DNA from: Gammaproteobacteria bacterium
GTDB taxonomy: Bacteria > Pseudomonadota > Gammaproteobacteria > Ga0077554 > Ga007554
Length of the DNA stretch: 64,000 nucleotides
Assembly (NCBI GenBank): GCA_021731145.1
Contig: JAKFXX010000006.1
Span: forward strand, 62,001 to 126,000
Direction of reading: 5' to 3'
A program made the translations under genes and the position numbers. Positions 44,178 to 53,761 of this stretch are shown piece by piece (position 1 is the stretch's first letter; the number at the start of each line of letters is the position of its first letter). The notes beneath the pieces are model-generated. The model made no database searches, was not told the origin of the DNA, and saw nothing but the letters and a program-made list of their open reading frames with translations.

Positions 44178-44219
44178 GTTTCGTACACAGGGGGGCTAGC
44201 CGCCCCCTGTGTGCGAAAC
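44178..44219. repeat. 17-bp inverted repeat upstream of hsdM
   Basis: GTTTCGTACACAGGGGG pairs with CCCCCTGTGTGCGAAAC (16 of 17) around 8 bases, 20 bp after the small secreted gene. It could terminate that gene, although no T-run follows. The rest of the 280-bp gap up to hsdM holds nothing recognised. Confidence 0.6.
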
Positions 44220-44436
44220 GAGTGTGCATTGCCATCTCCACGAAGGTCTGTATCCCGCTTTTGCAGCAGATTCGACTCTAAGCCCGGCAGGCTGCCAGGC
44301 CCATTGGACAAATATCAGAAGGATGGAAGTGCTGGTGCTGGGCTATGCCAAGGCACATGGCCTCACGCCTGACGACGAAACAGCCGCCTTGGTCCCGTCC
44401 AGGTTGGCAAGAATAAAAACAGGAATACCCACGCAC

Positions 44437-46230
44437 ATGAATCAACCCGCCCTCTCCGCCTTCATCTGGTCGGTTGCCGACCTGCTGCGCGGCGACTACA
44501 AGCAATCCGAATACGGCAAGGTTATCCTGCCCTTCACCGTGCTGCGTCGCCTGGACTGCGTGCTGGAAACCACCAAGCCTGCTGTGCTCACCGAATATGC
44601 CAAACAACAAAAAGCCGGGCTGAAACCTGAGCTGTTCCTATTGCGTAAAGCGGGCCAGCGCTTCTATAACACCTCGCCGATGGACATGAAAAAGCTCATG
44701 GGCGACCAGGATCACATCAAGGAAAACCTCTACGCCTACATCCAGGCGTTTTCGCCAGCGGTGCGGGATATTTTTGAACGCTTCGACTTCTACACCCAGA
44801 TCGAGCGCCTGACCAAATCCGGGTTGCTGTACCAGGTCACCGAGCGTTTCGCCCATGTCGATCTGCACCCGGAGGTTGTCAGCAATGCCCAGATGGGCCT
44901 GGTGTTCGAAGAGCTGATCCGCAAGTTTGCCGAGATCTCCAACGAGACCGCCGGGGAGCACTTCACCCCGCGCGAAGTCATCCGCCTGATGGTCAATCTG
45001 CTGTTCATTGAAGACGACGACGTGCTGGCCAAGCCGGGCGTGGTGCGTACCATCTACGACCCTACGGCAGGCACCGGCGGCATGTTGTCGGGGGCGGGGG
45101 AATACCTGGAAGAGCACAACCCGCAGGCGCGCCTCACCATGTTCGGCCAGGAACTCAACGATGAGTCCTACGCCATCTGCAAGGCCGACATGCTCATCAA
45201 GGGCCAGGACGTGGCCAACATCACGGCGGGCAACACCCTGTCGGACGATGGCCACCCGCACAAGAAATTCGATTACATGCTCTCCAACCCGCCCTTTGGC
45301 GTGGAGTGGAAAAAGGTCGAAAAAGAGATCCGCAAGGAACACGAGCAACAGGGCTTCAATGGCCGCTTTGGCCCCGGCCTGCCGCGCGTTTCGGATGGCT
45401 CGCTGCTGTTTCTGCTCCACCTCATCAGCAAGATGCGTCCGGCAGTTGATGGCGGCAGCCGCTTCGGCATCGTGCTCAACGGCTCACCGCTATTCACCGG
45501 CGGCGCGGGCAGCGGCGAAAGCGAAATCCGCCGCTATGTGCTGGAGAATGATCTGGTGGAAGCCATCATCGGCCTGCCCACCGACATGTTCTACAACACC
45601 GGCATCAGCACCTACATCTGGATACTCTCCAACCGCAAACCCGAACACCGCAAGGGGCTGATACAGCTCATCGACGCATCCGCCTTCTGGCAGAAGATGC
45701 GCAAGAGTCTGGGCAGCAAGCGCAAGGAAATGAGCGATGAACACATCGCTGAAGTGACGCGCCTGTTTGGCGATTTTCAGGAGGCGAGCGTAGGTCGGGC
45801 TTCAGCCCGACAAAATGAAAGTCGGGATGAGTCCCGACCTACAACCGAGGTTCCGATCTCGCGCATCTTCAAGAATGAAGAGTTTGGCTACCGCACTATT
45901 ACCGTGGAGCGCCCGCTGCGTGATGCGGCAGGCAAGATTTTGCTGGGCGAAAAAGGCAAGCAAAAGGGCAAGCCTCAGCCGGACAGCAGCCTGCGTGATA
46001 CCGAGAACGTGCCACTTTCGGAAGACGTGGAAAGCTACTTCAAGCGCGAAGTCCTACCCCATGCGTCCGATGCCTGGATCGACCACGACAAGACCAAGGT
46101 CGGTTACGAGATCCCTTTCAACCGCCATTTCTATGTCTTCAAGCCACCGCGCCCGTTGGTGGAGATTGATTCTGACTTGAAGCAATGCACCGACCGGATT
46201 CTGGACATGATTGCGGGCCTGACGAAATGA
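44437..46230 (+). CDS. hsdM: Type I restriction-modification methyltransferase subunit
   Basis: HsdM is the N6-adenine methylation subunit. It has 597 residues with motif [10 protein letters not shown] and motif IV NPPFG, plus the N-terminal HsdM domain ([20 protein letters not shown]). ATG 44437 is preferred; the frame extends upstream, but that leader lacks family similarity. At residues ~452-469 the sequence [18 protein letters not shown] is encoded by a 53-bp REP pair inserted in frame between FGDFQEA and [16 protein letters not shown], which are adjacent or nearly so in relatives. The insert sits in the C-terminal region, outside the catalytic core. The stop overlaps a following ATG (ATGA). 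Confidence 0.95.
45790..45842. repeat. REP pair (BIME) inside hsdM
   Basis: Two stem-loops face each other: GTAGGTCGGGCTTCAGCCCGAC and, inverted, GTCGGGA-TGAG-TCCCGACCTAC. Each carries the GTAG/CTAC tetranucleotide at its outer end. The same family occurs at 47373-47438, 49968-50007, 50468-50522 and inside the 127-bp repeats. The hsdM frame runs straight through it. Confidence 0.92.
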
Positions 46231-46340
46231 GCAATGAAACGGTCTGGCTGACGCAGAAGGCGGCAGTTATTTCCATTTTGGGAACAACTGCCGCCGGAAA
46301 GAGCTACCCGACACGCTACCACTACTACATGAACACATAA
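46227..46340 (+). pseudogene. Short remnant ORF after hsdM, possibly RhuM-like 5' end
   Basis: An ATGA overlap with the hsdM stop opens a 37-codon frame beginning [11 protein letters not shown]. This is reminiscent of the start of RhuM/Fic-associated proteins found in type I loci, then becoming unrelated. A 10-bp inverted repeat (GGCGGCAGTT, 46259-46268, and 46286-46295) lies inside. The frame ends within the 127-bp repeat. It is probably a gene fragment cut by insertion. The RhuM resemblance rests on eleven residues only. Confidence 0.35.
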
Positions 46341-46454
46341 ACTGTGCGGCGTAATGCCGCACGATTGTAGGTCGGCCTTCAGGCCGACATGTCTGGCTAA
46401 AGCCAGACCTACATGGGATTCGGATCATGTTTCGTAATTTATAATTTCATGTGC
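46328..46454. repeat. 127-bp MITE-like repeat, copy 2 (contains a REP pair)
   Basis: This is the second copy of 4722-4848 with the same boundaries. It includes GTGCGGC-GTAAT-GCCGCAC, a GTAG-headed REP at 46367 and its inverted partner ending CTAC at 46412. It separates hsdM from the fic module. The two copies differ by only a few bases. Confidence 0.87.
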
Positions 46455-46504
46455 AACCGCCCCGACAATGCGCGATTCGCTCTTACCAAGGCTGCTGTCT
46501 TCGG

Positions 46505-46568
46505 TATAATTGAACCCAACACACCCGCCATGCCTCTCTGCAATGCACACTTTGTGCGGGTTTTTATT
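46505..46568 (+). promoter_or_regulatory. Promoter and leader hairpin of the fic module
   Basis: A perfect -10 TATAAT (46505-46510) has a weak -35 17 bp upstream. The leader contains GCACA-CTT-TGTGC followed by GGGTTTTTATT (46545-46568), which resembles an intrinsic terminator. CCCGC at 46524 could instead pair with GCGGG at 46556. This could be an attenuator ahead of the antitoxin. Confidence 0.5.
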
Positions 46569-46582
46569 AGGAGATATGCAAA

Positions 46583-46741
46583 ATGCAAATCACTGCTAGC
46601 CTGAATAAACAAATTCGCAAAGCTGTTCAAATCTCGATGCAGATCGAAGGTTACAAACCCTCGCAGACACCTGCAATCAAAGAGCAAGTCAAAGCACTCA
46701 TGGAGCAGCACCGTGTCCAAGTATCAGTTCAGCGCAAGTGA
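46583..46741 (+). CDS. Fic antitoxin (VbhA-like inhibitory peptide)
   Basis: This is a 52-residue protein, MQITASLNKQIRKAVQISM and onwards, ending VSVQRK. It contains S-M-Q-I-E-G at residues 19-24, matching the inhibitory (S/T)xxxE(G/N) helix motif of class I Fic antitoxins, whose Glu blocks ATP gamma-phosphate binding. AGGAG lies 9 bp before ATG 46583. It overlaps the fic gene by 29 bp. The motif and the gene order make the assignment likely despite the short length. Confidence 0.78.
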   Translation: MQITASLNKQIRKAVQISMQIEGYKPSQTPAIKEQVKALMEQHRVQVSVQRK

Positions 46742-47348
46742 CATCTGCCTGCCCGGCACGGACATTCCCAAAAATCGTTTGGGGATAACCGAGCCGGAGC
46801 TATTGCATGAGATCGAAGAAACCCTGTTGCAGCAGGCCTACCAAACCTTCATCGCCGAATGTGAATCCACCACCCGCTTCGACGAAATCTACTTCAAATC
46901 CTTACAACAGCGCACCTTTGAAACACTCTACGACTGGGCTGGTGTGTATCGCACAGTCGATATGAGCAAAGGTGGCTCGGTATTCTGTCGCGCCGCTTAT
47001 CTTGAGCAAGAATCCCGGCGCATCTTTCGCCAACTGGAAGAAGAAGGATTCTTAAAGCAAACCCAGGATGGGCAGCCAGAAAAGTTCGCCGAGCGACTGG
47101 CCCACTACCAATCCGAATTGATCGCCCTGCATCCCTTCTACGAACTCAACGGACGTATCACCCGCTTGTTCTTTGATTTGATCGCCGTTGCCAACGGCTA
47201 CGCTCCTATTGATTACAGCAACGCATTGCTGGGACAACCCATGAATGCCTATATACAAGCCTCCATCGCCTGTGTGCAACAAGCTGATAGCAGCATGCTG
47301 CACCAGATTATCTCGCAAGGGCTGAGCAAACTGGATGCAACAGCATGA
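46713..47348 (+). CDS. fic: Fic-family AMP-transferase (toxin)
   Basis: Fic enzymes transfer AMP from ATP to a Tyr, Ser or Thr of a target protein. It has 211 residues with motif HPFYELNGRITR from His140. The catalytic His, Asn and Arg residues are intact, but the first Gly of the usual HPFx(D/E)GNGR is Leu. The start is GTG 46713, inside the antitoxin gene, so translation is coupled. The TGA stop overlaps the next ATG. Fic genes are commonly found inside type I R-M operons; the target here is unknown. Confidence 0.9.
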   Translation: MSKYQFSASDICLPGTDIPKNRLGITEPELLHEIEETLLQQAYQTFIAECESTTRFDEIYFKSLQQRTFETLYDWAGVYRTVDMSKGGSVFCRAAYLEQESRRIFRQLEEEGFLKQTQDGQPEKFAERLAHYQSELIALHPFYELNGRITRLFFDLIAVANGYAPIDYSNALLGQPMNAYIQASIACVQQADSSMLHQIISQGLSKLDATA

Positions 47349-47461
47349 GTTTGCCGCGTTATCCGAATATGCATAGGTCGGGATTCATCCCGACAATTTT
47401 CGATATACGCGCCGATGTCGGGATGAATCCCGACCTACAAAACCGTGAGGTGCGCGCATGA
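47345..47461 (+). CDS. 38-codon relay ORF linking fic to hsdS
   Basis: The ATG overlaps the fic stop (ATGA) and the TGA overlaps the hsdS ATG (ATGA). The first eight codons (MSLPRYPN) nearly duplicate the hsdS start (MSLPRYPE), and the remainder is encoded by a REP pair and its linker. It looks like the original hsdS start, cut off by a repeat insertion that duplicated about 25 bp. The product probably has no function beyond carrying ribosomes to hsdS. Whether it is translated is inferred. Confidence 0.6.
   Translation: MSLPRYPNMHRSGFIPTIFDIRADVGMNPDLQNREVRA
47373..47438. repeat. REP pair between fic and hsdS
   Basis: TAGGTCGGGATTCATCCCGAC and its inverted partner GTCGGGATGAATCCCGACCTAC are separated by about 22 bp. 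The left tetranucleotide is ATAG, the right one intact (CTAC). It belongs to the same family as the hsdM insert. Confidence 0.9.
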
Positions 47462-48747
47462 GCTTGCCGCGTTATCCTGAATACAAAGCTAGCGGCGTGG
47501 AATGGCTGGGCGAGGTGCCGGGGCATTGGGATATGAAGCGGCTCAAACATAACTTACGGCTACTGACCGAGAAAACTGACCGACGAGAGCACCCGGTTGC
47601 TTTGGAAAACATCGAAAGCTGGTCAGGTCGTTTCATTGAGACCGACAGCGAGTTTGAGGGTGAAGGTGTTGCATTTGAGCGCGGTGACATCTTATTTGGG
47701 AAGTTGCGTCCTTACCTTGCAAAGGCGTACTTGGCCGAGACTGCCGGGGAGGCGGTAGGGGATTTTCACGTCATGCGTCCAGGGACGAACATTAATGGGC
47801 GATTCGCGCAGTACCAGATTTTGAATCGGGAATTTATCACTATCGTTGACAGTTCAACCTTTGGTGCAAAAATGCCCCGCGTCGGCTGGGACTTTCTTGG
47901 CAATATGCTCTTGGCAGCACCACCCATCCCCGAACAAAAAACCATCGCCGCCTTCCTCGACCGCGAGACGGGGAAGATTGATGCCTTGATGGCCGAGCAG
48001 CAGCGACTGATTGCGTTGCTGGCGGAAAAGCGCCAGGCGGTGATTTCGCACGCCGTCACCAAGGGGCTGAACCCGGATGTGCCGATGAAGGATTCCGGCA
48101 TCGAATGGCTGGGCGGAGTGCCGGGGCATTGGGAGGTTGCTCCGCTAGGATACTTGGTAATGTTGATTCAGACAGGCCCGTTTGGTAGTCAGCTTCATTC
48201 GGAAGACTATGTAGAAGGTGAAACACCTGTAATCAATCCATCCAACATTCAAGACGGAAAGCTAGTGGCGGATTGGTCATGCACTGTTACACAAGAAATT
48301 GTTGCTCGCCTTTCACAGCACAAATTGATGTTTGGCGATATCGTATTTGGCAGACGCGGTGAGATGGGTCGTTGTGCGATGGTTACAGTAAACGAGGTTG
48401 ATTGGTTGTGTGGAACCGGTAGTTTGAATGTACGGCTTTCCAGCCGGGCAATCCCAGAATTCGTTTCAATATATCTGAGAACAGCATATGTTCGGGAGTT
48501 TCTAAAGCTGGAATCTGTTGGCTCCACGATGGATAACCTGAATACGCAAATACTATCCTGTGTTCCAGTGCCTTTGCCGCCTCTCGTGGAACAACAAGCT
48601 ATTGCCACCTTTCTTGATAACGAAACTACCAAGTTCGACGCCCTCACCGCCGAGGCCAACCGCGCCATCACCTTGCTGCAAGAGCGGCGTAGTGCGCTGA
48701 TTTCGGCAACTGTGACAGGGAAAGTTGATGTAAGGACATTTGCCTGA
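47458..48747 (+). CDS. hsdS: Type I restriction-modification specificity subunit
   Basis: HsdS recognises the bipartite DNA target and holds HsdM and HsdR. It has 429 residues with two target-recognition domains and two conserved spacer regions. The repeated openings SGVEWLGEVPGHWDMKRL and SGIEWLGGVPGHWEVAPL mark the halves, and IPEQKTIAAFLDRETGKIDA and LVEQQAIATFLDNETTKFDA mark the central and C-terminal helices. The two recognition domains differ, so the target should be asymmetric. The start overlaps the relay ORF stop. Confidence 0.95.
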   Translation: MSLPRYPEYKASGVEWLGEVPGHWDMKRLKHNLRLLTEKTDRREHPVALENIESWSGRFIETDSEFEGEGVAFERGDILFGKLRPYLAKAYLAETAGEAVGDFHVMRPGTNINGRFAQYQILNREFITIVDSSTFGAKMPRVGWDFLGNMLLAAPPIPEQKTIAAFLDRETGKIDALMAEQQRLIALLAEKRQAVISHAVTKGLNPDVPMKDSGIEWLGGVPGHWEVAPLGYLVMLIQTGPFGSQLHSEDYVEGETPVINPSNIQDGKLVADWSCTVTQEIVARLSQHKLMFGDIVFGRRGEMGRCAMVTVNEVDWLCGTGSLNVRLSSRAIPEFVSIYLRTAYVREFLKLESVGSTMDNLNTQILSCVPVPLPPLVEQQAIATFLDNETTKFDALTAEANRAITLLQERRSALISATVTGKVDVRTFA

Positions 48748-48748
48748 C

Positions 48749-49867
48749 ATGGATATTTCAAAGCTGACTAGTGTAGCAAGTTTGCCATCCTCAATATCTG
48801 AGGTAATGAAGCAGTCTATGAATTTTGAGCGGCAAGTGTCCCAGTTTATGAATTCATCTGCTTTGCTTGCTAGCCAATTTGGAGTCGCATCACAACTTGC
48901 CAAGGAGATGACGGATCAGTCCGGCCATTGGAAAAGATTCACCGAGCCATTGTCTCAAATCAGAGAATCTATGTTGTTTTCCGATCAAGTCGCCAAGGCA
49001 ATGGCTTCATCTTCACTAGGTTGGCAAAATACGGCTCGTGAGCTGGCGGAATCTTTGTCCTTTTCCTCATCAGCCATGCGAATGTCGGATGAAATCAGCA
49101 AGCAGATGATGGGAATCTCGGCCTTGCATCTCGAACGATTCGCAGAAATCACTAAGCCATACCAAGGGCTGTTGGATTCAATAGCTTCTGGATCGTTTGC
49201 TGCAAAAGCCGCCAGAGAAATGGCAGTGCAGCATAATTGGGCGCGGCATATTCAACTTCCAGTTATTGATAGCGCAGCCGCTAATGCTATTGCGGCGATA
49301 TGGGGGCGAGAAGGAGTCGAAAGACAACTCAAATCCTTTGGCGTTGAATATCAGCAGCTCTTCGACGACATTGAGACTACGACAGAAAGAACACAAAGCT
49401 CATCACAATTCAAAATTCCTACAATCGATTTTTGGACTGTATTTAACATCCTGCTTGCGATTTTGTTGTTTCTATACCAAGTTCGGGATTCAGCCCAGAT
49501 GGAAAGCCGACTTGTTTCCGAAATCCAGCTTTCAAGGAATGATGTACAAAACGGTACGCATCTTATCGAGCAGTTACTACAGACTCTGATTGAGTCGAAA
49601 CAGCCGAATGAAGAGGGAAAAATCCAGTTCGTTGTTCGTTCCAGAGTGGCGACAATACGCACCTCTCCACGCGCAGGCTCGACAGCTATTGCTGAGATTT
49701 TTCCGAACCAGGTGGTTACGTTGCTAGATGAGGATGGAAAGTGGATTGAAGTCGAATACTTCGATTGGCTAAAACAAGAGATGCGAACTGGCTGGGTATT
49801 AAAGAAATATTTAGTGCGAGTGCCTTCGGTTCGACCGTATTCGAACAATGAGGTGGGCGATGAGTAA
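48749..49867 (+). CDS. Membrane-anchored protein with SH3-like domain, in the R-M operon
   Basis: This is 372 residues. Residues 1-220 are helical and rich in Ser/Met/Gln (MKQSMNFERQVSQFMNSS), resembling a coiled or adhesin-like stalk. One membrane segment (TVFNILLAILLFLYQV) lies near 229-244. A coiled segment follows, then a bacterial SH3 domain at ~294-356 (VATIRTSPRAGSTAIAEIFP). The start is 1 bp after the hsdS stop and the end overlaps the next ATG by 8 bp, so it is an integral member of the operon. Codon use is less GC-rich than hsdM and hsdR. No named family; a defence accessory is possible. Confidence 0.7.
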   Translation: MDISKLTSVASLPSSISEVMKQSMNFERQVSQFMNSSALLASQFGVASQLAKEMTDQSGHWKRFTEPLSQIRESMLFSDQVAKAMASSSLGWQNTARELAESLSFSSSAMRMSDEISKQMMGISALHLERFAEITKPYQGLLDSIASGSFAAKAAREMAVQHNWARHIQLPVIDSAAANAIAAIWGREGVERQLKSFGVEYQQLFDDIETTTERTQSSSQFKIPTIDFWTVFNILLAILLFLYQVRDSAQMESRLVSEIQLSRNDVQNGTHLIEQLLQTLIESKQPNEEGKIQFVVRSRVATIRTSPRAGSTAIAEIFPNQVVTLLDEDGKWIEVEYFDWLKQEMRTGWVLKKYLVRVPSVRPYSNNEVGDE

Positions 49868-50021
49868 TCTGCACAAGGAAATCAACTTCGAAACAGAAAT
49901 CTACGGCTACACGATAGATGAGAACTGCACGCGGCTGCTGTTGGGGCAAGATCGATGTACGCTATGTGTAGGTCAGGCTTTAGTTTGTCGGGTTGAAACC
50001 CGACCTACGGGGATGTTATGA
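49860..50021 (+). pseudogene. hsdR-like 5' remnant running into a REP pair
   Basis: A 53-codon frame starts MSNLHKEINFETEIYG, which matches the HsdR start MSLHKEISFESEICD, then loses similarity. It passes through a REP pair and ends in TGA overlapping the ATG of the RAYT gene. The base-level match to hsdR (50570) is only moderate, so it may come from a diverged allele rather than a fresh duplication. It overlaps the preceding gene by 8 bp, as an intact hsdR would. Confidence 0.6.
49968..50007. repeat. REP pair upstream of the RAYT gene
   Basis: GTAGGTCAGGCTTTAGTTTG is an eroded left REP. GTCGGGTTGAAACCCGACCTAC is an intact inverted right REP ending 10 bp before the transposase ATG. Flanking a RAYT gene with REPs is the usual arrangement. 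Confidence 0.85.
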
Positions 50022-50464
50022 CATACAACGATCTGCGCAAAGGCCGTGTTTCACAATCAGGTTTGGTGTACCACATTACGACGGTGACGCAGAACCGGGC
50101 ACCTCTTTTTGCTTCGCTTGATAACGGGCGCAAGGTGGTGCGGGAGTTGGTGACATTGCAAGCTGAAGGTAGGGCAGAGACGCTTTGCTATGTGGTGATG
50201 CCGGATCATTTGCATTGGCTGATGGTGCTGCAAGCTGGCAAGTTATCCGAGGCAGTTCGGATGTTGAAGGGGCGTTCGGCGCACGCGATTGGGCGGGCGG
50301 TTTGGCAGGCAAATTATTTCGATCATGCAGTACGGAAAGATGAGGATTTTCGGAGGATGGCGCGGTACATTGTGGCGAATCCATTGCGGGCAAATTTGGT
50401 TGAACGGATTGGCGATTATTCGTTGTGGGACGCGGTTTGGTTGGATGAGGCGTTGTCGGGATAA
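50018..50464 (+). CDS. REP-associated tyrosine transposase (RAYT, Y1 HUH family)
   Basis: This is a 148-residue IS200/IS605-like single-strand transposase. VVMPDHLHWLMVL contains the HUH motif (His-Leu-His), and the C-terminal part RRMARYIVANPLRANLVERI is the conserved RAYT helix with the WQANYFDHAVR segment before it. RAYTs recognise GTAG/GGAG-headed REP hairpins and are usually single-copy, domesticated genes. It lies between REP pairs and inside the R-M operon, between the unknown membrane gene and hsdR. The catalytic Tyr is expected in the C-terminal helix (the RYIV tyrosine). Confidence 0.93.
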   Translation: MTYNDLRKGRVSQSGLVYHITTVTQNRAPLFASLDNGRKVVRELVTLQAEGRAETLCYVVMPDHLHWLMVLQAGKLSEAVRMLKGRSAHAIGRAVWQANYFDHAVRKDEDFRRMARYIVANPLRANLVERIGDYSLWDAVWLDEALSG

Positions 50465-50467
50465 TTG

Positions 50468-50522
50468 GTAGGTCGGGTTTTAACCCGACATGTCAGGAAA
50501 GTCGGGTTAAAACCCGACCTAC
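50468..50522. repeat. REP pair downstream of the RAYT gene
   Basis: GTAGGTCGGGTTTTAACCCGAC, spacer ATGTCAGGAAA, and the inverted GTCGGGTTAAAACCCGAC-CTAC. This is the most perfect member of the family in the window. It lies just before hsdR. Confidence 0.93.
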
Positions 50523-50569: not shown

Positions 50570-53500
50570 ATGAGCCTGCACAAAGAGATCAGCTTTGAAA
50601 GCGAAATCTGCGACACCCTGGCCGCGCAGGGCTGGCTGTATGCCGAGGGCGATGCCGCCCGGTATGACCGCGCCCGCGCCCTGTTTCCGGTGGATGTGCT
50701 GGCCTGGATACAGGAAACCCAGCCCAAGGCCTGGGAGACGTTGACCAAGAACCACGGCGCCCAGGCGGAGGCCGTGTTGCTAGACCGCCTGCGCAAGTCG
50801 CTGGATGACCGTGGCACGCTGGATGTGCTGCGCCATGGGGTGGAGCTGCTGGGGTTGCGCCAGCCGCTGGCTTTGGCCCAGTTCAAACCGGCCCTGGCGA
50901 TGAACCCGGAGACGCTGGCCAAGCATGCCGCCAACCGGCTGCGCGTGGTGAGGCAGGTGCGCTACTCGCTGCACAACGAGAATTGCATCGACCTGGTGCT
51001 GTTCCTCAACGGCCTGCCGGTGGCCACCGTGGAACTCAAGAGCGATTTCACCCAGTCGGTGGAGGATGCGGTGGATCAGTACCGCTTCGACCGTCACCCC
51101 CGCCCAAAAGGGCAATCCGCCAGCGAGCCGCTGTTGAGCTTCCCCAATGGTGCGTTGGTGCATTTTGCAGTGAGCAATAGGGAAGTGCGCATGACCACTC
51201 GGCTGGAGGGGGCGAGCACTACATTCCTGCCTTTTAACCGGGGCGACAACGGCGCGGCGGGGAACCCGCCCTCTCCCGACCTTCGGTCACCCTTTCCCAC
51301 GAGTGGGAGAGGGGTTGGGGGAGAGGGCGGCCACCGCACCGCCTACTTGTGGGAAGACGTGTGGGCACGGGAAGGCTGGCTGGAGATTCTGGGGCGCTAT
51401 CTGGTGGTCAGCCGTGACAGCAAGAAGCAGATCACCAGGATCATCTTCCCGCGCTTTCACCAGCTCGATGCCACGCGCAAGCTGCTGGCGGCGGTGCTGG
51501 AAGAGGGGCCGGGCGGCAAGTACCTGATCCAGCATTCGGCGGGATCGGGCAAGACTAACTCCATTGCCTGGTCGGCGCACTTTCTGGCCGATCTGCACAG
51601 CGCCGATCACAAGAAGGTGTTCGATTCGGTGCTGGTGGTGTCCGACCGCACGGTGCTGGATGCGCAGTTACAGGAGGCCATCTTCGACTTTGAGCGCACG
51701 GCGGGCGTAGTGGCCACCATTACCGGCGAGGGCGCCAGTAAGAGCGAGGAGTTGGCCAAGGCGCTGTCCGGCGGCAAGAAGATCGTGGTGTGTACCATTC
51801 AGACCTTCCCGTTTGCGCTGCAAGCGGTACAGGAGCTGGCGGCCACCCAGGGTAAACGCTTTGCAGTGATTGCCGACGAGGCGCATTCGTCGCAGACCGG
51901 CGCGGCTGCCGCCAAGTTGAAGGCGGTGCTGAGTGCAGAAGAACTTCAGGAATTGAACGACGGCGGTGAGGTCTCCACCGAAGACTTGCTGGCGGCGCAG
52001 ATGGTGGCGCGTTCAGCGGAGAGTGGCATCACCTACGTGGCTTTTACCGCCACCCCCAAGGCCAAGACGCTGGAGCTGTTTGGCCGCCGCCCTGACCCTG
52101 CCCAGCCCGCCAGCGCAAACAATCTGCCCGCGCCGTTTCATGTTTATTCCATGCGTCAGGCCATCGAGGAGGGCTTCATCCTCGACGTGCTGCAAAACTA
52201 CACGCCGTACAAGACTGCTTTCAAACTGGCCCATAATGGGGCCGAGTACGACCCCCGATCGGAGCCGGGGGCAGGCGAAAAAGCGGTGGCGCGTAGCGAG
52301 GCGTTGAAGGGGATCATGCGTTGGGTAAAGCTGCACCCCTACAATATCAGCCAGAAAGTGCAGGTGGTGGTGGAGCACTTCCGCGACAACGTCGCCCTGC
52401 TGTTGAATGGCCGCGCCAAGGCGATGGTGGTGGTGTCGAGTCGCGTGGAGGCAGTGCGCTGGAAGCTGGCAATTGAAAAATATATTCAATCGCAGGATTA
52501 CAGGATCAGCACGCTGGTGGCCTTCTCCGGCGAGGTGCATGACCCGGAATCAGGCCCGGATGGTTTCACCGAAACCAGTCAGACCTTAAACCCAAACCTG
52601 CGTGGCCGTGACATTCGCAAAGCCTTCGGCACTGACGAATATCAAATCCTGTTAGTGGCCAACAAATTCCAGACCGGTTTCGACCAGCCCTTGCTGTGCG
52701 GCATGTACGTGGACAAGCGCCTGGCGGGTATTCAGGCCGTGCAGACGCTGTCGCGCCTGAACCGCGCCTATCCGGGTAAGGACACCACCTATGTGGTGGA
52801 TTTCGTCAACGATCCAGATGAAGTATTGGCGGCGTTCAAGACCTATCACGCCACGGCGACACTGGAAAATGTCACCGACCCGAATCTGGTGTATGACCTG
52901 CGTGCCAAGCTGGATGCGGCGGGATTTTACGACGACTTCGAGGTGGAGCGTGTGGTGACCGTGGAGTTGAATCCAAACGCCAGGCAAAGCGACCTGACCG
53001 ACGCGCTGGAGCCGGTGGTGGATCGACTGCTGAAACGCTACAAGGCGGCGCAGGAGCGGTTGACCGCCGCCAAGGCGAAAAAAGATGACAAGGCGGCGGA
53101 TGATGCGAAAAACGAATTGAATGCGTTGGTGCTGTTTAAAGGTGATATGGGCGCCTTCCAGCGCATGTATACCTTCCTGTCGCAGATTTTTGACTATGGC
53201 AACACCGCCATCGAAAAGCGCTATATCTTCTATAGGCGCCTAATGCCGCTGCTGGAGTTTGGCCGTGAGCGCGAGGGTGTTGATCTTTCCAAGGTGATCC
53301 TGACGCATCACACCCTGAAGAATCAGGGCAAACGGCCACTGCCTCTGGTCGATGGCGAATATCCGAAGCTCGAACCCTTCACGGCGGCGGGCAGTGGCAT
53401 GGTGCGGGAAAAGGAGCGGGCGTATCTGGCTGAAATAATCGCCAAGGTAAACGACCTCTTCGAAGGCGAACTGACTGACGACGACCGCTTGGTGTATGTG

Positions 53501-53761
53501 AACAACGTGCTGAAGGGCAAACTGCTGGAGTCGGATATCCTGGTGCAGCAGGCGGTGAGCAACACCAAGGAACAGTTTGCCAATTCGCCCGACCTCTCCA
53601 GCGAGATCATGAACGCCATCATGGATGCCCTTTCCGCGCATAGCACTATGAGCAAACAGGCGCTGGAATCGGAACGGGTGCGCAGTGGCCTGCGGGATGT
53701 GCTGCTGGGGCCGGCACGACTTTATGAGGCGCTACGGGAACGATCAGAAACGAGGCCGTGA
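50570..53761 (+). CDS. hsdR: Type I restriction-modification endonuclease subunit
   Basis: HsdR translocates DNA with ATP and cleaves at a distance. It has 1063 residues from ATG 50570 (AAGGA 8 bp upstream); the frame upstream runs through a REP pair and is not family-like. The nuclease motif VATVELKSD is near residue 150, Walker A SAGSGKTNS near 325 and the DEAH box VIADEAHSS follows, with the C-terminal helical domain complete. Residues ~233-254 come from a 65-bp palindromic repeat inserted in frame between FNRGDNGAAGNPP and GHRTAYLWEDVW. The catalytic and motor motifs are intact. Confidence 0.95.
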   Translation: MSLHKEISFESEICDTLAAQGWLYAEGDAARYDRARALFPVDVLAWIQETQPKAWETLTKNHGAQAEAVLLDRLRKSLDDRGTLDVLRHGVELLGLRQPLALAQFKPALAMNPETLAKHAANRLRVVRQVRYSLHNENCIDLVLFLNGLPVATVELKSDFTQSVEDAVDQYRFDRHPRPKGQSASEPLLSFPNGALVHFAVSNREVRMTTRLEGASTTFLPFNRGDNGAAGNPPSPDLRSPFPTSGRGVGGEGGHRTAYLWEDVWAREGWLEILGRYLVVSRDSKKQITRIIFPRFHQLDATRKLLAAVLEEGPGGKYLIQHSAGSGKTNSIAWSAHFLADLHSADHKKVFDSVLVVSDRTVLDAQLQEAIFDFERTAGVVATITGEGASKSEELAKALSGGKKIVVCTIQTFPFALQAVQELAATQGKRFAVIADEAHSSQTGAAAAKLKAVLSAEELQELNDGGEVSTEDLLAAQMVARSAESGITYVAFTATPKAKTLELFGRRPDPAQPASANNLPAPFHVYSMRQAIEEGFILDVLQNYTPYKTAFKLAHNGAEYDPRSEPGAGEKAVARSEALKGIMRWVKLHPYNISQKVQVVVEHFRDNVALLLNGRAKAMVVVSSRVEAVRWKLAIEKYIQSQDYRISTLVAFSGEVHDPESGPDGFTETSQTLNPNLRGRDIRKAFGTDEYQILLVANKFQTGFDQPLLCGMYVDKRLAGIQAVQTLSRLNRAYPGKDTTYVVDFVNDPDEVLAAFKTYHATATLENVTDPNLVYDLRAKLDAAGFYDDFEVERVVTVELNPNARQSDLTDALEPVVDRLLKRYKAAQERLTAAKAKKDDKAADDAKNELNALVLFKGDMGAFQRMYTFLSQIFDYGNTAIEKRYIFYRRLMPLLEFGREREGVDLSKVILTHHTLKNQGKRPLPLVDGEYPKLEPFTAAGSGMVREKERAYLAEIIAKVNDLFEGELTDDDRLVYVNNVLKGKLLESDILVQQAVSNTKEQFANSPDLSSEIMNAIMDALSAHSTMSKQALESERVRSGLRDVLLGPARLYEALRERSETRP
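51266..51330. repeat. 65-bp palindromic repeat inside hsdR
   Basis: The ends are exact 12-bp inverted repeats (CCGCCCTCTCCC and GGGAGAGGGCGG). An inner hairpin TCCCAC...GTGGGA lies near the right side. The element encodes about 22 Pro/Gly/Ser/Arg-rich residues in the hsdR frame. It is unrelated to the GTAG REP family and resembles the CCCTCTCCC/GGGAGAGGG repeats scattered in many proteobacterial genomes. Confidence 0.88.

Follow-up and report, generated by a model that had tools for sequence, protein, structure and literature searches.

The window analysed here, a stretch of 64,000 nt from a contig of a Gammaproteobacteria bacterium, contains an hsd locus in which a palindromic repeat is read in frame within hsdR whilst a second insert is read in frame within hsdM. 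The locus raises the question of what the hsdR repeat is, how it came to lie within the coding sequence of a restriction enzyme, and whether the segment that it encodes makes any difference to that enzyme. The features of the locus are as follows.

44209-46230, forward strand: hsdM (start codon uncertain)
45790-45842, forward strand: pair of GTAG-type REPs whose hairpins face each other, within the hsdM frame
46713-47348: Fic-family gene between hsdM and hsdS
47417-47438, reverse strand: GTAG REP between the Fic-family gene and hsdS
47458-48747, forward strand: hsdS
48740-49867: ORF with an SH3-like domain
49987-50008, reverse strand: GTAG REP upstream of the RAYT gene
50018-50464, forward strand: RAYT (REP-associated tyrosine transposase) gene with GTAG REPs on both flanks (NF047646, E 1e-39)
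50468-50522, no strand assigned: GTAG REP pair between the RAYT gene and hsdR
50570-53761, forward strand: hsdR, 1063 aa, intact; HSDR_N nuclease domain at residues 118-215, SNF2-type motor from residue 297, the insert between them

The Fic-family gene matches the PADLOC PDC-S04 candidate defence models.

The insert in hsdR and its limits

On the coding strand of hsdR positions 51266-51330 read CCG-CCCTCTCCC-GACCTTCGGTCA-CCCTTTCCC-ACGAGT-GGGAGAGGG-GTTGG-GGGAGAGGG-CGG, and can be divided thus:

51266-51268, forward strand: CCG, host bases, aligned with a Pro codon of uninterrupted homologues (placed in the element by the initial annotation)
51269-51327, forward strand: the TM/PIT-type palindromic element proper, 59 bp, in frame, as defined by its arms, folding, homologue alignment, family model and the TM description in PMC4666352
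51269-51277, forward strand: left outer arm CCCTCTCCC
51278-51289, forward strand: 12-bp spacer GACCTTCGGTCA with a 4-bp mini hairpin, common to the copy in an unrelated hsdM (L157)
51290-51327, forward strand: core TM unit, the hairpin CCCTTTCCC-ACGAGT-GGGAGAGGG, then GTTGG, then a second purine tract GGGAGAGGG, which is also the right outer arm
51328-51330, forward strand: CGG, host bases, aligned with C and the GG of a GGC Gly codon in uninterrupted homologues (also placed in the element by the initial annotation)

From the sequence alone the insert had been described as a 65-bp element with exact 12-bp terminal inverted repeats, encoding 22 residues within a stretch that is short and conserved in HsdR proteins. 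The inverted repeats, CCGCCCTCTCCC (51266-51277) and GGGAGAGGGCGG (51319-51330), are indeed exact, and an alignment of ~80 HsdR homologues (65-82% identity) bears out the short conserved stretch, typically GNPxNxxGHRTAYLWE, with the insert absent. The size has to be revised, as the codons of these homologues align with the window sequence on both flanks of the insert in what amounts to an empty-site form, so that the outer CCG and CGG are host bases, three at each end, and the element proper is ~59 bp with 9-bp arms. By the same comparison (homologues read GNPP-NEH/NEQ-GHRTAYLWE) the figure of 22 residues gives way to 19 in place of 3 (57 nt for 9 nt), a net gain of 16 residues and 48 nt. Compared with a MITE, which has terminal inverted repeats and a target-site duplication, the element shows its 9-bp arms, no duplication is seen and ~9 nt of host sequence appear to have been replaced; these points and the junctions themselves are judged against diverged homologues only, the closest hsdR without the insert being 84% identical over the tree columns.

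The element strand folds better than all 200 of 200 dinucleotide shuffles (z -3.97), and CCCTCTCCC occurs four times in the window against 0.33 expected, with three of the four inside the element. The 1063-aa frame stays open across it; the difference in length is divisible by three and the repeat has few stop codons, which is why the gene stayed open, and five of the six frames of the element are open. The scarcity of stop codons in TM copies is accounted for by base composition (5.22 open frames per copy compared with 5.07 in shuffles).

The host protein has the marks of a type I HsdR, namely HSDR_N, the SNF2-type motor and intact conserved motifs, and is matched by TIGR00348 below the curated cut-off. 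It departs from the other sequences at none of 376 positions conserved in at least 97% of them, a supporting and not an independent result given that the homologues were picked by similarity to this HsdR, which biases the test in its favour. The insert residues are rich in Pro, Gly and Ser (SPDLRSPFPTSGRGVGGEG, by inferred translation) and the loop is predicted to be disordered, with residues 237-252 below a pLDDT of 50 in an AlphaFold model of moderate overall quality (mean pLDDT 70.5, pTM 0.49). A profile alignment places the corresponding region of EcoR124I HsdR (2w00) between the nuclease and motor domains as well.

The TM family in the genome and across the class

The core unit (51290-51327) consists of three consecutive 9-nt tracts, one of pyrimidines and two of purines, separated by short loops, with one mismatch in the first tract relative to Table 1 of PMC4666352. 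Judged on this sequence, the hsdR repeat is a member of the known G/C-rich triplex motif (TM, or PIT) family, CCCTCTCCC...GGGAGAGGG..GGGAGAGGG. The G/C-rich intrastrand triplex motif (TM, TM_ECO; earlier PIT elements) was described by Holder et al. 2015 (PMC4666352) and has the same order of C-tract, loop, G-tract, loop, G-tract, and the same habit of dispersed copies, sometimes in inverted pairs. The hsdR copy is a composite, in which the TM core is joined by an extra 12-bp mini-hairpin spacer and an outer arm.

A search of the genome for other copies, which the initial annotation had proposed as a check, was productive: with a covariance model built on the core unit, the 2.9-Mb genome yields 17 loci (E <= 0.025), and the exact hairpin pattern finds 10 loci where a reversed control finds none. 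By inspection of open frames the TM loci are mostly intergenic (L115 and L117, near contig ends, were left out), and a second in-frame copy follows RRL in the GDP-fucose synthase gene fcl (L120 570-1622; element at C24 11846-11880), where an epimerase domain is recognised across the copy. Shortly 3' of this copy the fcl gene has a further, unexplained extra segment, PGRMPKCGERRDAQEPP.

Strong TM copies are present in 66 of 369 genomes of the class. When 92 sampled copies were read with 1.5 kb per side, four were in frame, with Pfam domains flanking or surrounding the element:

L185: in-frame TM copy in mfd
L223: in-frame TM copy in lnt
L226: in-frame TM copy in metG
L248: in-frame TM copy in a UDP-sugar dehydrogenase gene

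In-frame copies are therefore a small minority and are not confined to restriction genes; with no restriction gene among these four clear cases of the class sample, an enrichment of the family in restriction genes is not claimed. Four other candidates (L213, L229, L263 and L176) were rejected as in-frame cases, the element lying either between domains that belong to different genes or on the 5' side of the domain that was recognised.

The composite form is far more restricted. In the 369 class genomes there is only one other near-full-length match (E 1e-8), a copy 85% identical in genome G142, where an unrelated hsdM reads it in frame, with its HsdM_N domain on one side and its N6_Mtase domain on the other. 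The pattern of spacer plus arms occurs once in the window's own genome and many times in some others (40 in G121, 17 in G276), with none in the reversed control, and those composite-pattern matches that were examined elsewhere are of smaller size and for the most part do not fall within long open frames. In G121 (1.8 Mb) and G276 (1.1 Mb), both small genomes, a shorter relative, GGGAGAAGGTGGCCGAAGGCCGGATGAGGG, is present in dozens of copies. Plasmid records gave partial matches only, with no more than 60% of the query covered; one such match lies under a gene annotated for cobalamin biosynthesis. The G142 hsdM (L157 1039-1851) apparently loses its reading frame later, after QSEK, as a result of either a pseudogene or a sequencing error.

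Recurrence at one HsdR loop and the origin of the hsdR copy

A similar segment in distant HsdR proteins had been named as evidence against an insertion, and one other HsdR does have such a segment: that of Methylomonas koyamae R-45383 (L055) has an inverted pair of TM units in this very loop. This pair is also the only TM sequence found in 720 kb around 80 hsdR homologues. In a tree built without the insert columns L055 is sister to a Nitrosomonas HsdR without an insert (support 100/99), and both it and the window HsdR fall within a well-supported clade of six sequences, the other four members of which have no insert. The insert trait needs two changes on this tree, and none of 200 bootstrap trees permits one, so that the M. 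koyamae segment looks like a second insertion. Two separate gains at this loop would be the most economical reading of the tree, the alternative being one gain followed by several losses in the six-member clade. Short, unrelated, non-TM expansions are found at or near the loop in two further homologues (L065 and L072), which fits a loop that is tolerant of extra sequence.

The insert in hsdM is of a different kind. It comprises two facing GTAGGTCGGG... hairpins with the GTAG tag, and homologues have a different sequence at the REP site, in a loop that is naturally variable in length. The claim that two different repeat families have entered two subunits of the same enzyme consequently holds, the hsdM insert being a GTAG-type REP that homologues lack at that site and the hsdR insert a TM. 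Of the ten GTAG REP hairpins of the genome, six cluster in the hsd locus around the RAYT gene (45790-50522), which suggests that the locus carries the RAYT transposase and its repeats along when it moves. The seven other genomes of the family yielded nothing close to this HsdR (30% identity at best), and sequences from different phyla are intermingled in the HsdR tree; both findings indicate horizontal transfer of the hsd locus. As the composite subtype is single-copy here and multicopy elsewhere, it more likely arrived with the locus than transposed within this genome.

We consider that a copy of a widespread non-autonomous TM/PIT palindrome, here in composite form, entered the loop between the HsdR nuclease and motor domains; the gene stayed open and HsdR would have gained a flexible loop. 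In all likelihood the insert is tolerated as a passenger, of little consequence for the enzyme, and it probably came with a horizontally acquired hsd locus. Its route of mobilisation is inferred, no cognate transposase having been identified in the genome for the TM family. We put the probability of an in-frame TM/PIT insertion in the HsdR linker, tolerated as a passenger and probably brought in with the locus, at roughly 85%.

It could instead be that the insert has been selected, with a longer linker or an mRNA hairpin tuning restriction or hsdR expression. Such a role would suit the finding of two HsdR lineages hit at the same site, of inserts in two subunits of one enzyme, of a strong predicted RNA hairpin (-48.8 kcal/mol) and of an hsdM as the home of the sole other near-full-length copy in the class sample. 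However, tolerance alone would also yield recurrence at a permissive loop, TM copies in mfd, lnt, metG, UDP-sugar dehydrogenase and fcl mean that restriction-modification genes are not exclusive targets, and the later loss of frame in the G142 hsdM gives no hint of benefit; we regard selection as unlikely. The wider proposal, that the HsdR linker, and type I restriction genes more generally, are recurrent landing sites for palindromes whose loops alter nuclease-motor coupling or hsdR expression and so tune restriction, is similarly doubtful.

The RAYT encoded just upstream of hsdR (50018-50464), which presumably mobilised the GTAG repeats, might be thought to have mobilised the hsdR element too, since it sits in the same locus and the literature ties RAYTs to REP mobility. 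Its flanking repeats are GTAG-GTCGGG REPs, though, to which the hsdR element has no sequence relation; there is no GTAG or CGTC tag at 51266-51330, and none of the 17 TM loci adjoins any of the ten Y1 transposase genes of the genome. As its repeats differ, the RAYT was rejected as the source, which we hold to be improbable. Even less probable is that the segment is an ancestral HsdR loop, palindromic by chance and lost elsewhere. The Pro/Gly-rich segment of M. koyamae at the same place in the same clade might seem to speak for common ancestry, but that segment consists of two TM units, members of a family known to be mobile, and differs in architecture, the four clade members without it would demand one gain and at least three losses where no bootstrap tree allows a single change, and the DNA of the hsdR element matches intergenic repeats elsewhere in the genome. 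The assembly is a draft of 47 contigs, and an assembly artefact or a chance GC-rich palindrome has also to be weighed; yet the element lies ~90 kb inside a 204-kb contig, keeps the frame, matches a repeat family and has an 85% identical composite counterpart in an unrelated single-contig genome, all of which make this the least credible explanation. The preferred reading thus remains that of a tolerated TM insertion.

In-frame palindromic repeats and the HsdR site

In-frame palindromic repeats are a known phenomenon, of which the TM family and the HsdR site are a new instance. Intragenic GTAG/CGTC REPs are short palindromes read in frame, often as 20-30 aa, many of them in DNA repair genes, and in two Xanthomonas species recB has been hit at nearly the same position (Di Nocera et al. 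2013, PMC3733652). The hsdM insert of the window fits this class, whereas the hsdR element differs from it in having no such tag. The Rickettsia palindromic elements (RPE) are palindromic repeats found in frame in unrelated protein genes (reviewed in PMC10969869), and the hsdR repeat resembles them, as a phenomenon, in being read in frame in a gene whose homologues are without it; RPEs themselves are ~150 bp and confined to Rickettsia and relatives. The REPINs of the RAYT system (PMC3116915) are paired, inverted, dispersed hairpins, as is the insert of M. koyamae, but unlike REPINs no TM copy in this genome has a RAYT beside it, and for TM the link is one of analogy. In E. coli MG1655 TM has been reported to be always intergenic, as an observation and not a definition (PMC4666352). 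Unlike the MG1655 repeats, copies here are in frame in genes, and the hsdR copy has its extra spacer and outer arm.

The hsdR insert is a clear and testable instance in which repeats scattered through a genome provide new stretches of protein. In several genes of other proteobacteria a repeat reported from E. coli as exclusively intergenic forms part of the coding sequence, and on the most parsimonious account a single protein loop has acquired it on at least two occasions. An effect of the loop on restriction activity would offer a simple route from repeats to altered phage defence; if it is without effect on restriction, the insert would mark a natural tolerant site in HsdR.
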